Shown: piece after piece, positions 6,925 through 13,393 of the stretch
Layout of the letters: each line of letters opens with the position of its first letter
Numbering within the stretch: position 1 is the first letter of the stretch
Assembly (NCBI GenBank): GCA_016783945.1
Contig: JADHVP010000001.1
Span: 1 to 64,000 of the forward strand
Source: Ignavibacteria bacterium
GTDB taxonomy: Bacteria > Bacteroidota > Ignavibacteria > Tepidaquicellales > Tepidaquicellaceae
Reading direction: 5' to 3'
DNA: 64,000 bases
Position numbers and translations under genes: made by a program
The notes under the pieces: model-generated
What the model was told of the DNA's origin: nothing
The model's database searches: none
What the model saw: only the letters and a program-made list of their open reading frames with translations

Positions 6925-7920
6925 ATGAATAAAGACATAAAAAAAAATATTCCCGACATAAAGGAAAGGATTTCTATTCTTATTCCTACATATAATGTCA
7001 TCAAGTATCTTGGAGAATGTCTTGATAGCATTGTTTCGCAATCATATAAGAATTTCGAGATAATAATTTGTGACGATCATTCAAAAGAAGATGAGTTTGA
7101 CAGGATAAAATCGATTGTTAGTAAGTACAACGAAAAATGTGAGTCCATATCCCTGCATAGAAATGAGACTAATCTGGGCTATCAAAGAAATTGGAATAAG
7201 TGTATTGAGTTAGCAAATACAGAAATGATTCATATATTACATGCTGATGATGTTTTTCATGATAGTGAAGTGATCTCAAAGCTCGTAAGATTTTTAAATG
7301 ATAATAAAGATTTTGCTTTAGTGGGAGGTCTTGTTGATATTATCGATGCTAAAGGTAAGCTGATTAGTGAGTCCAAAGGCAATAGTGATAAGGTCTGGCA
7401 AAAAGGACAGGTATACGAATTTGTAACACAAAAGAATTCGCACATTTATTGTTCTACAGTAATGATGAGGAAGTCTTTCGTAAAGCAGGTAGGATGGTTC
7501 GATCCGGAAATTGAGGGTGCTGATGAAGAGTTATGGCCTAGGGTTTTAACAAAGTTTTCAATTGCTGAATTAGGAGAACCTCTGGTTTTTCACAGGATTC
7601 ATCCTGAACAAGCCGAATCAAAATTCTGGTTTAATAAAAGACTTGCTAAAGATGTCTGGAATATGTTCGAGGTTGTTATTAATTATGAAAAAAGAAAACA
7701 CTTAAAGAAGAGAATGAAAAAGCATTTCAAGAAGAAATTTTCGAGGAGTGCTTTACATGTTGCAGATAGGGTTCTTAATGAGTTTCAGTCGAAAAAAATG
7801 TCATTGTGGCATTTATGGGTTTCGCTGCGATTTGATCCATTAATAGTTTTGAAACGTAAAGCGTACTGGGTAGTTTTGGTACGTAATTTAAGATCGAAAA
7901 AATCCTTAGCAAAAAAATAA
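6925..7920 (+). CDS. glycosyltransferase family 2
   Basis: ISILIPTYNVIKYLGECLDSIVSQSYKNFEIIICDDHS, HADDV. Confidence 0.9.
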   Translation: MNKDIKKNIPDIKERISILIPTYNVIKYLGECLDSIVSQSYKNFEIIICDDHSKEDEFDRIKSIVSKYNEKCESISLHRNETNLGYQRNWNKCIELANTEMIHILHADDVFHDSEVISKLVRFLNDNKDFALVGGLVDIIDAKGKLISESKGNSDKVWQKGQVYEFVTQKNSHIYCSTVMMRKSFVKQVGWFDPEIEGADEELWPRVLTKFSIAELGEPLVFHRIHPEQAESKFWFNKRLAKDVWNMFEVVINYEKRKHLKKRMKKHFKKKFSRSALHVADRVLNEFQSKKMSLWHLWVSLRFDPLIVLKRKAYWVVLVRNLRSKKSLAKK

Positions 7921-7933
7921 AAGACAATCAATT

Positions 7934-8596
7934 TTGAGTAAATATAAGAATTTTTTAAAAGCGATTTTTTTTGAAAAGTTATTTAGTGATTTACTGTTTT
8001 TAAATTTATTAAAGAAAAATTTCGATGACGTTAAGACAGTCTTAGAATTAGGTGCTGGAGAGGATAGCTATATAAATTTTGTTGATCGTAAGTTTAAAAT
8101 TACAGCTTTAGATCTTCACAAGGCTTCCATAGAGATGTCTAAAGAACATAATAATTTTGATGAGTATATTCCTCGGAGATGCGAGAGAAATAACAACTAT
8201 TTTCGATCGTGATTTATTCGATGTCGTAACGTCCTTTGACCTTATTGAACATTTTGAAAAAAACGAAGGCTTAAGGTTGTTAGAGGATATGACTATAATT
8301 GCGAAAAAAAAGTTGTTGTATATACACCGAACGGTTACGTCCCGCAGAAAGCGACTGTAGACAATCCATTTCAGGAACATAAATCAGGTTGGACGTTACA
8401 AGAGATGGAAAAGTTAGGATTTAAAGTTTTCGGTGTTAACGGTTTCAAAAAACTACGCGGTATTTATGCTGTTCCTAAGATAAAACCTCGTGAGTTAGGA
8501 AATTTTGTGTGCAGTATAAGTCAGGTTTTATTAAAACTGATGGGATTAAACAAATTCTCTTATGGAATATTATGTGTTAAAGAAGTTAGTCAGTGA
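7934..8596 (+). pseudogene. class I SAM methyltransferase interrupted by two compensating frameshifts
   Basis: Three consecutive ORFs (7934-8212, 8157-8360, 8405-8596) read as one protein after removing one C near 8172 and adding one A at the A8 run near 8295: VLELGAGED...DEYILGDAREI...VVTSFDLIEHFE...KVVVYTPNGYVPQ...HKSGWTLQEMEKLGF. Confidence 0.8.
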
Positions 8597-8775
8597 GTGG
8601 TATAATCTTTTCACCTAAAGGAAATTATATTCCAAGACAGTTGTTTTCTTTATTAAATATTGAAGTCCACCACGAAAACCTTTCACTTGGACCATTTCCC
8701 CCAAAGTCAATTATCTTTTTTGAATCATATTATACATTGATATTACTATACAAATTATATACTTTTTTCGCTTAA
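8593..8775 (+). CDS. short hypothetical ORF, possibly a truncated gene start
   Basis: GTG start overlaps the upstream TGA (GTGA); 60 aa; no family recognised. Confidence 0.3.
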   Translation: MSGIIFSPKGNYIPRQLFSLLNIEVHHENLSLGPFPPKSIIFFESYYTLILLYKLYTFFA

Positions 8776-8790
8776 TTTGAACAAATTGAT

Positions 8791-9012
8791 ATGTACAAAA
8801 CGTTTCCGGAAAATATTAAATTACCTGATTTAGAGGAAGAAATATTAGCTTATTGGAAAGATAATAACGTTTCTAAAAAAAGTATTTCTTCCCAAACCTA
8901 TAGCAAGACATTTACATTTTATGGAGTTCCCCCCACAACCAATGGACTGTCGGGAATTCATCATGTCATTTCAAGAGCGGTAAGAAAATTTAAAGTAAAT
9001 AAGGAAATATAA
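8791..9012 (+). pseudogene. N-terminal fragment of isoleucyl-tRNA synthetase
   Basis: MYKTFPENIKLPDLEEEILAYWKDNNVSKKS...FTFYGVPPTTNGLSGIHHVISRAVRKF matches the IleRS N-terminus pattern (PPxxNGxxGIHHV, class I HIGH region); ends after 73 aa. Confidence 0.8.
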
Positions 9013-9015
9013 CCC

Positions 9016-9723
9016 ATGCTAAAGAGAATTGTTAAATGGTTCTTTGCGATATTTGGTCTTGATGTTAAAAGAACTTCTACCATAATTCGAGACAAGAGCC
9101 AATGTTATACGCTTTATAAATATTTAAATAAAGATGGAACATTTGATTTCGAAACTTATCGGCAAATACAAGAAGCTGGTAACAAAGTCAAGATTGAGTT
9201 GGTTTGGGCGATCGAAGAAAATATTGCTTTCCTTTCAGACTACATCAAAAAACTAATAGGAACACCGGAATTTGGAATCTGCCATGGAACACGAAGGGGA
9301 AAGGAACAGGAATGGTTCAGGAAATACCTTGAATGTGAAGTAATCGGCACCGAGATATCAGAAACTGCAGAACAATTTCCATATACAATTCAATGGGATT
9401 TTAATGAAACAAAACATGAATGGATAAATGCAACGGACTTCATTTACAGTAATTCATTCGATCATAGTTATGACCCAGAAAAGTGCCTTGATGCATGGAT
9501 GAGCTGTATTAAAACAGGAGGTATTTGTATTATTGAGCATGGTTCATCCCACGAACCTTACGGAGCAAATCAACTTGATCCGTTTGGTGCTCATATTGTT
9601 CAGATGCCTTACCTGATAACAACTTGGGGAAAAGGTAAATACGGTGTACGTGAAATCCTTAAAGCCCCAAAAAAATTTGAGGGAGTAGATTATCTTTACT
9701 TTATAGTTGTTCAAAAGTATTAA
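9016..9723 (+). CDS. SAM-dependent methyltransferase-like protein
   Basis: GICHGTRRGKEQEWFRKYL..EVIGTEISETA..FIYSNSFDHSYDPEKCLDAWMSCIKTGGICIIEHG. Confidence 0.7.
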   Translation: MLKRIVKWFFAIFGLDVKRTSTIIRDKSQCYTLYKYLNKDGTFDFETYRQIQEAGNKVKIELVWAIEENIAFLSDYIKKLIGTPEFGICHGTRRGKEQEWFRKYLECEVIGTEISETAEQFPYTIQWDFNETKHEWINATDFIYSNSFDHSYDPEKCLDAWMSCIKTGGICIIEHGSSHEPYGANQLDPFGAHIVQMPYLITTWGKGKYGVREILKAPKKFEGVDYLYFIVVQKY

Positions 9724-10018
9724 ACTGCAAGAAGCATTGAAAAAAGTTTCTTTTAATATCCTAAATTCACACTCCTGTTTGTATTCGGTTTAATTAGATG
9801 AACCTAACACCAGTAGTTCAATAACAATTCATCGACCAATCAGTGTGTTTATTGAGATTTCGAATTTCAAGACGATATGGTCTGGATCCTTTTTACCTAT
9901 CTGAGTCATTGCAAATGGTCAATATGATTTCCGCTTCGTTTGATTTGATAAATCAAGAACCTCTGAAAAACAATGCAAAAAAACGCCAAAAATTTGGCAA
10001 TCGAGTGTTGTAAATAAT

Positions 10019-10783
10019 TTACCATTGGTTGTTGACAACAACATTTGATTCCTCATTATTATCACCTTTATAAATAAATATCAAATTATGATAGAAATGC
10101 ATAGATATGATTTTTTTGTCAAAATAACTTTGTTTATAACCGGGTATTATGAATTCTTTATTGTTTAAGGTATCTGTCAAGCTTTTAAAAAAGTTCATCA
10201 GCGTTTTAGAGTTGTCTAAGTCCTGACTATCACCACCAAAGTCATCCCAATATGAAGTTTGTGTATCCTCAATAACATAAATTCCTCCATCTTTCAATTT
10301 TGGAAATAACAGATTAAATGTTTTAATAACGTGCTCATTAATATGGCTACCATCATCAATAATGATATCTAAGTCCCCTATTTCGTTAATTACTTCGTTC
10401 AAAAAGTTTTCATCTGCCTGATGTCCTTTGAAAATTTTTATGCGTTTCTCTTGAAGAATAGATTTGTCATAAATATCTATAGAAAATATCCTACCAAATG
10501 GAAAATAATTTTTTCACATTCTTAAGGAATTACCGCCTTTGGCAGGTTTTTTGTAACCTCCAACACCAATTTCCAGCAGTTTGACTCTTCTGTATTTGAA
10601 TCTCCCCAAATGTAACTTATAATGAGGTGTATAAAAATGACTTCCCCATGTTTCGCTTCCATATATTTCTGCTATTCTATTTAAATTATTCCAGGAGCCA
10701 ATTGCTTTAATATTATTAATAAGTTGCCGTATTTTGCGTCTTTGCTTATAAGAAAAATTCTTTTTAATAGATTCTCTAAGCAT
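10019..10783 (-). pseudogene. class I SAM methyltransferase with one in-frame TGA
   Basis: ORFs 10514-10783 and 10019-10402 are in the same frame; readthrough gives LLEIGVGGYKKPAKGGNSLRM*KNYFPFGRIFSIDIYDKS...LDIIIDDGSHINEHVIKTF...GGIYVIEDTQTSYW; TGA at 10514-10516 lies where a Trp (TGG) is expected. Confidence 0.85.
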
Positions 10784-10972
10784 AATGCTTTCCTGTTTTT
10801 AATTTACAAATAACCAATGATTAATCCGCGAATTAATTATTGTTAAATAAAATAATATACTGCTTTATAAAATAATATAAGATAAAAGTTTTTTTACCGA
10901 TTATCAATTATCTTATTGTAATGTTGTTTTTGTATCAGATATTCCCCCGTGGGGGGTGCTACGTGCTAACCT

Positions 10973-10995
10973 AACACCTGCAGCAGGCAGGTGTT
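10973..10995. repeat. Perfect 9-bp inverted repeat/hairpin (aacacctgc-agcag-gcaggtgtt)
   Basis: Direct reading; followed by gttcc-ttc-ggaac at 10993-11005. Confidence 0.8.
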
Positions 10996-11219
10996 CCTTC
11001 GGAACATTTGATATAACAGTCAAAGGAAGACGTGATCTTTCGAGACCTCTGAATGTTCTATACTCATCTATCATACTCCGTACTCTTGGGTTAAAATGAT
11101 TTTGCCTGATGGTTGGGTTCAAACGCATTGCAGAGTGCAACATAGCAACATTGGCTGCAACCCGTTGTTAGTCAGTCTTTTGCCTTATGGAAAGAAAGTG
11201 TTGTTGCCATTCTCAATGG

Positions 11220-12044
11220 TTACTTAACTATCATAAAAGCAAGAGAACCGCCAGGGACTGAATATATTTTCTGCGTTTTAGATAGTTCTAAAATCCATTT
11301 TGTTACACCATTAATTCCTACTCGCCCGAAATCGTGCCATGCTATCACGCTTCCGGGATGGCAACACTTTAACGCATTCAACGTATCAGAACGGACATAT
11401 TCATATGAATGAGCACCATCAATAAAAAAGAGATCAACCTTTTCGTAGAAGGGTGAGAAATCAAAAACAGCACTATCACCGAACAAACAGGTTATCTTTT
11501 TAGCAATAGTTCTACTTTCAACACAATAACTTTCCATTTTAGCGTAAGAGTTTATGTGAAGATCGTCTAAATGGGTAGTGTGTAAAGTCAGTTGAATGCT
11601 TTCGTCCTTTGGTAAGTCCAGAGTATAGATTTTTCCGTCATCTGGCGTATTTAGTGCAAACTGATAAGCAGTGTAACCTCTTAAAGTTCCAATTTCAAAC
11701 ACGACTTTTGGGCTGATTATTTGACAGATCAGACACAAATTGAGTATATCAGCTGTGTATGACGCTTGTGCTCCGAACCAACTTCCACCGGATGTGAGAT
11801 TTCCCAATTTAACATTAACAGAATCATTGGATGGTAACACTTCAAATACGTTTCTTAGAGGTATGCCCCTTTTTGAGTTAAGAGCCTTGTATAAGAATAA
11901 AATTTCCGAAATATATTCAATCATTCTTCTCGGACTTTTTGCAAGGGTAAGAGAAATTAAGTTACCGCCCAAAATAATATTTCTGATTACTACTGCGGTA
12001 ATCTTGATGGCTTGTTTAAGTTTCATTGTATGCTCCTCGTTCAC
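11220..12044 (-). CDS. class I SAM methyltransferase
   Basis: VVFEIGTLRGYTAYQFALNTPDDGKIYTLDLP...VDLFFIDGAHSYEYVRSDTLNALKCCHPGSVIAWHDFG; probable start at internal ATG (MKLKQAIK) after a GAGG ribosome-binding site. Confidence 0.85.
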   Translation of the reverse strand: MNEEHTMKLKQAIKITAVVIRNIILGGNLISLTLAKSPRRMIEYISEILFLYKALNSKRGIPLRNVFEVLPSNDSVNVKLGNLTSGGSWFGAQASYTADILNLCLICQIISPKVVFEIGTLRGYTAYQFALNTPDDGKIYTLDLPKDESIQLTLHTTHLDDLHINSYAKMESYCVESRTIAKKITCLFGDSAVFDFSPFYEKVDLFFIDGAHSYEYVRSDTLNALKCCHPGSVIAWHDFGRVGINGVTKWILELSKTQKIYSVPGGSLAFMIVK

Positions 12045-12559
12045 AGAGTACGCTAAGCTAATCGCCGCTTTTGCGTTGTAGTGGGCTAACTATAGAATAT
12101 ACTGCAATATTGAAGTATTATACTTATTATTATTTTAGTTAGTTAATTATGTATAAATAAATTAGAATATATTGATGAGTAAAAACGTTACATCCTAAAA
12201 AAATTATCGAACGTAAAAATATATTATATATTATAAGAAAAGGAAATGTAAAAAAACTAAATGATTGACTCACTTCACTTTCTATTCTGTAATTCTTGTG
12301 TTTTATCATATCTATATTAACATTTTATTTTACTTATATTTTATTCATTGCTGAACTTCTTTAAAGTAATATTTTTCAATAGATTTTAAGAAAAAAGTAA
12401 AATATATTACTAAAATAATTAGAGTTTGTAACCTATATCATTCGGTTAGCTTCTTTTTAGAATGTAATAAAAATATCTTTGATTAGCTAATTGTTAGTAT
12501 CTTAAAGCAACTATAAACCTGGAAAAAATTCATTGTAAGTAATCGAAGTAAGTAAAATA

Positions 12560-13393
12560 ATGAAAAATGAATGTAAACTTTGCGGTGCAATAAATTTCTT
12601 AAAATATTTAGAAGATAGGGGGTATAAATATTTTCGATGTAAGAATTGTTCTCTTGTTCAATTAGTACCGATGCCTACTGATGAAGAACTCGAAGAAGCA
12701 TATTCTAAAAAATACTATAATGAAGAAAAAAACTTTGTTAAGAAGTTTTACTGGAACTTAAGGGAATCCTATGAAAAACTATTAACAATTGAAAAAAGAA
12801 AGGGAAAAATCAAGGGTCTTAAATTACTCGATGTTGGAGCTGGAAAAGGTCATTTTCTTGATGTTGCTAGAGAATTTGAAGCAGTAACCTATGGTAGTGA
12901 AATCTCGGAGTATGGAAAAAAAGAAATTATTAAAAAGGGTCTTAACTTCGTAAACAATGTATCGGAATATAAAAACTATTTCGATATTATTACATTATGG
13001 GATGTTGCTGAGCATTTAAATGAACCCTCGAAGGAGTATCAAAACTATTTCGATGCTTTAAAAACAAACGGTCATATATTCATTGCTACTTCATGGATTG
13101 ATGATTTAATAGATAAAATTATGTTTGGATATACTATGTGGTCTGATCCACCTTATCATACCTTATTATATAATAAATCTACATTACAAGATTTCTTAAA
13201 CAATGCAGGATTCAAAAATATCTTAAGGGAAAAGACACATCAGTCTGGAAATTACTATCATTATACGAAGAGTTTTTGGTTAGCGAAGCAGATAGTTAAA
13301 AAATATTTGAGATATGGTGAATGGAAAAGAGCAAGACGAGATATACAGGCAGGAGTCGGCAGTTATTTATTTGTATCTGCACAAAAATCATAA
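12560..13393 (+). CDS. class I SAM methyltransferase with N-terminal Cys-rich zinc-ribbon-like region
   Basis: CKLCGAINFLKYLEDRGYKYFRCKNCSLVQLVPMP; LLDVGAGKGHFLDVA; ITLWDVAEHLNEP. Confidence 0.85.
   Translation: MKNECKLCGAINFLKYLEDRGYKYFRCKNCSLVQLVPMPTDEELEEAYSKKYYNEEKNFVKKFYWNLRESYEKLLTIEKRKGKIKGLKLLDVGAGKGHFLDVAREFEAVTYGSEISEYGKKEIIKKGLNFVNNVSEYKNYFDIITLWDVAEHLNEPSKEYQNYFDALKTNGHIFIATSWIDDLIDKIMFGYTMWSDPPYHTLLYNKSTLQDFLNNAGFKNILREKTHQSGNYYHYTKSFWLAKQIVKKYLRYGEWKRARRDIQAGVGSYLFVSAQKS

Follow-up and report, generated by a model that had tools for sequence, protein, structure and literature searches.

The locus described here raises the question of how the start of a gene for isoleucyl-tRNA synthetase (IleRS), ileS, came to lie within a polysaccharide locus, and whether it still serves a purpose there. 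The original prediction allowed for a scar of recombination or for a retained fragment, acting as a decoy or representing the remains of an inhibitor-resistant second ileS. The window (the whole stretch of 64,000 nucleotides that was analyzed) comprises positions 1–64,000 of contig JADHVP010000001.1 from the Ignavibacteria bacterium MAG GCA_016783945.1. A literature search for orphan ileS pieces in polysaccharide loci yielded nothing.

Identity and extent of the open reading frame

The 73-aa open reading frame (ORF) at 8791..9012 on the plus strand has the predicted translation, and its assignment as an IleRS N-terminus was confirmed with the profile that had been proposed for this check, NCBIfam TIGR00392 (E=1.4e-9, 36.7 bits, ORF residues 5–65 against profile positions 2–62). 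The match to Pfam PF00133 (E=0.003) was under the gathering score of that model. Full-length ileS sequences of relatives aligned to ORF residues 1–66 far beyond chance (best E=1.9e-23), at 45–62% identity within the same family and 44–52% within the same order. Judged by these alignments, the ORF is homologous to the IleRS N-terminus. The class I HIGH region is present as GIHH, the stop codon (TAA, 9010–9012) comes just before a methyltransferase gene with its ATG at 9016, and polysaccharide genes are found on both sides, all as originally described.

The extent of the homology has to be corrected. Alignments with every family ileS end at codon 65–67 of the ORF, and residues 67–73 (FKVNKEI, followed by the stop) are read-through into unrelated DNA past the end of IleRS homology at about codon 66 (nt ~8988). 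The stretch homologous to family ileS codons 1–66 runs from 8791 to 8988 on the plus strand, with its right break point at approximately 8985–8990; the 27 bases after ~8988 separate the end of ileS similarity from the methyltransferase gene at 9016. A functional IleRS would be full-length, whereas homology here reaches only codon 66 of a 73-aa ORF. Compared to same-family IleS (TIGR00392, ~1045 residues), the piece lacks the catalytic core beyond HIGH, KMSKS, and the editing and anticodon domains; what the two share are the N-terminal 66 residues, the start codon, and a CATTGA box upstream.

Homologues in related and distant genomes

Matches to the 73-aa ORF were found in 33 of the 40 related genomes searched. 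Most lie in frames of ~1045–1100 aa, corresponding to full ileS, and the four shortest frames (245–478 aa) are probably cut by contig ends. Conserved stand-alone homologues of 73 aa, which the original prediction named, for a different family, as an outcome that would speak against it, were absent among these 33 relatives, all of whose matching frames are long. Similarly, none was noted among the 27 loci of a genome-collection scan of more distant bacteria, the frames of which were not each checked; identities there were at most 48%. Plasmid and phage matches were ileS, mupA, or unannotated records, all below 60% identity. By these identities, the donor was most likely the ileS of the organism's own lineage or of a near relative. 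In a tree built on 64 columns, the piece branched off close to the family's base, but support was weak and the tree uninformative.

The same searches bear on the inhibitor-resistant ileS, a second gene once present in the locus of which all but the 5' end would have been lost. Such an origin would fit the makeup of the piece, the upstream region of an ileS followed by the 5' end of the gene. Moreover, the piece shares its superfamily with the mupirocin-resistant enzymes MupA and MupB, and the profiles score similarly over the ORF (MupB 37.5, MupA 32.5, generic ileS 36.7 bits). With the MupB and MupA scores close to that of generic ileS, nothing in them points to a resistant type. The best matches, however, are housekeeping ileS genes of the family and not MupA or MupB, to which the piece is less close. 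Each relative has a single ileS; the lone second match (in genome G019) is 26% identical and probably a ValRS. In the source genome, no other ileS piece and no sign of a second complete ileS were found. A resistant remnant is very unlikely on these grounds, and this part of the original prediction gained no support.

Upstream sequence and left junction

A CATTGA box lies 48 to 64 bases before the ileS start (−48 to −64) in 14 of 18 relatives; it is found at about −105 in two and is missing in the other two. In the window, the box at 8735..8744 on the plus strand reads CATTGATATT and stands at −56 from the start of the 73-aa ORF, a position matching that of the box 5' of the relatives' ileS. 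The pattern CATTGAWATT occurs once in the 64-kb window, with 1.7 occurrences expected by chance on both strands, so the evidence for the box is its position and not its rarity. The box may be part of the ileS control region and of its presumed promoter, and the ileS-derived segment probably reaches upstream of the ORF start to about 8735.

The minus strand carries, at 8625..8729, the C-terminal stub of a SAM-dependent methyltransferase (35 codons including the stop), which ends where the ileS segment starts. Read as SKKIIDFGGNGPSERFSWWTSIFNKENNCLGI before its stop, the stub resembles the methyltransferase C-terminus in L069, FKKIDFWGMGPVTPINSCTSVFYRENNCLGI, likewise followed by a stop. From the stub end at 8729 and the box at 8735, the left junction can be placed within a few bases of 8730–8735. 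Homology over codons 1–66 together with the positioned upstream box points to an ileS 5' segment of ~255 bp that would include part of the presumed promoter. Direct repeats or target duplications of at least 14 bp bracketing the piece were not found at the junctions, and a search for RNA families in 7900–12600 returned one chance-level match, far below the gathering score. The plus-strand ORF at 8593–8775, considered as a truncated operon gene, was rejected as spurious; it matches methyltransferase C-termini in antisense.

Decay of conserved residues

Decay was assessed by aligning the piece to 18 ileS genes of the family; 26 of the first 66 columns are invariant. Six of these 26 positions are altered in the ileS piece, compared to none or one in the intact genes when each was left out in turn. 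The exchanges are E to G, G to V, A to T, P to S, K to R, and D to K, the last two at the junction. With this junction pair excluded, four changes remain, all within the motif that is best conserved in this region: FYEGPP near the HIGH motif has become FYGVPP, and within the context of functional IleRS (FYEGPPTANGxPGIHH) GIHH is kept, but all four exchanges from E to G through P to S hit family-invariant positions. On the evidence of this alignment, the piece is not under IleRS-type selection. As in a pseudogene, break points can be located (~8730–8735 and ~8988), and constraint is relaxed relative to the intact genes.

The altered invariant residues around the HIGH region also argue against a functional mini-IleRS peptide serving as decoy or regulator, for which the intact ATG and the open 73-codon frame could be cited. 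The ORF is too short for a catalytic domain, and stand-alone homologues were not found in the genomes searched. We consider such a peptide extremely unlikely; with the catalytic motif decayed and the mini-ORF not kept elsewhere, the proposed decoy is unsupported.

An artefact of assembly, i.e. a chimeric contig, might be suspected in a fragmented MAG (139 contigs, 77.8% complete). However, the piece is internal to its contig and flanked left and right by polysaccharide genes, and its codons show decay, unlike a clean duplicate of a functioning ileS. This explanation is highly improbable.

Working ileS in the source genome

Neither a full ileS nor another piece of the gene was found in the MAG (completeness 77.76%, 139 contigs). 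The remaining sequences that match the ileS model seem, judged by frame length and context, to be related synthetases (a ValRS of 888 aa and others). In most relatives whose regions were read, ileS, traR, lspA, and secA stand together, a neighborhood different from that of the piece with its changed invariant residues. The traR and lspA sequences taken from one relative had no match in the MAG, and the lspA Pfam model and the secA model were also empty, although both models match in control genomes. As SecA is essential, the organism most likely has the ileS-traR-lspA-secA block and the assembly lacks it.

A damaged neighborhood

Three damaged genes lie near the ileS piece, amid sugar and methyltransferase genes. 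Besides the stub at 8625–8729, these are a methyltransferase gene at 7934..8596 (plus strand) with two frameshifts, where consecutive parts of the profile are matched in different frames, and a methyltransferase gene at 10019..10783 (minus strand) with one in-frame stop at 10514–10516. The methyltransferase-like gene at 9016..9723 (plus strand, 235 aa, weak PF08241 match), which begins 3 bp past the stop of the 73-aa ORF, is apparently intact.

Some further features of the region were recorded. The glycosyltransferase at 6925–7920 is closely similar to one on contig C128 of the same genome (L085:3388-4389). This contig also bears a copy of an AT-rich element of ~100–125 bp, located at 10803–10927 in the window and dispersed in the genome, with further copies on C106 (four), C33 (two), C91, and C24 (73–88% identity, the C128 copy included). 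Most of the copies seen precede the start codons of unrelated genes by ~15–75 bp, each oriented the same way relative to its gene; the repeat may act as a promoter or leader element that spreads. An attC-like imperfect inverted repeat (GCCTAAC...GTTAGCT) was seen on C106 (L081:8495-8566) and in weaker form at 11020–11180 of the window; the folding was not significant. The small minus-strand ORF beside the C106 sequence presumably resembles DUF4177. An origin of the ileS piece from an integron cassette was not adopted, given that the window has only weak attC-like sequence and that no such sequence borders the piece.

Origin of the piece and its meaning

Truncated pseudogene fragments occur in rearranged polysaccharide loci of bacterial genomes. 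The ileS piece resembles them in being a short 5' remnant with defined junctions, decay, and broken genes alongside, and it differs in its donor, a housekeeping translation gene and not a transposase or sugar gene. We infer, with a probability of roughly 0.8, that it is a decayed 5' pseudogene fragment of ileS. Illegitimate recombination or unequal exchange would have copied or moved a segment of ~255 bp, comprising part of the control region and codons 1–66, into the polysaccharide locus, where its left end abuts a truncated methyltransferase gene and its right end lies shortly ahead of a second one. The piece has decayed since and probably lacks any IleRS-type function. The break points, the decayed invariant residues, the broken neighbors, and the absence of stand-alone homologues among the 33 matching relatives all support the recombination scar among the options first proposed.

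Some features run counter to a mere scar: the ORF is still open with its ATG, the box upstream is plausible, and the stop 3 bp before the next ATG may indicate use as a leader. They would agree with a putative promoter capture, in which the ileS upstream region and start drive the methyltransferase at 9016 on the same strand, the 73-aa ORF being a coupled, translated leader with codons free to decay while the CATTGA box is kept. The role of the box as a promoter is itself deduced, however, and no comparable locus was found in other genomes, so that we regard this capture as unlikely. In a reading slightly less likely still, the displaced ileS 5' end would act as promoter and translated leader, making expression of the surface-polysaccharide methyltransferase depend on the regulation of IleRS. 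Were the upstream region active, the locus would offer a case of promoter capture.

As a decayed pseudogene fragment, the piece leaves the view of IleRS biology unchanged. It suggests instead that this stretch of the locus takes up and discards DNA, with the 5' end of a housekeeping gene amid several broken genes.
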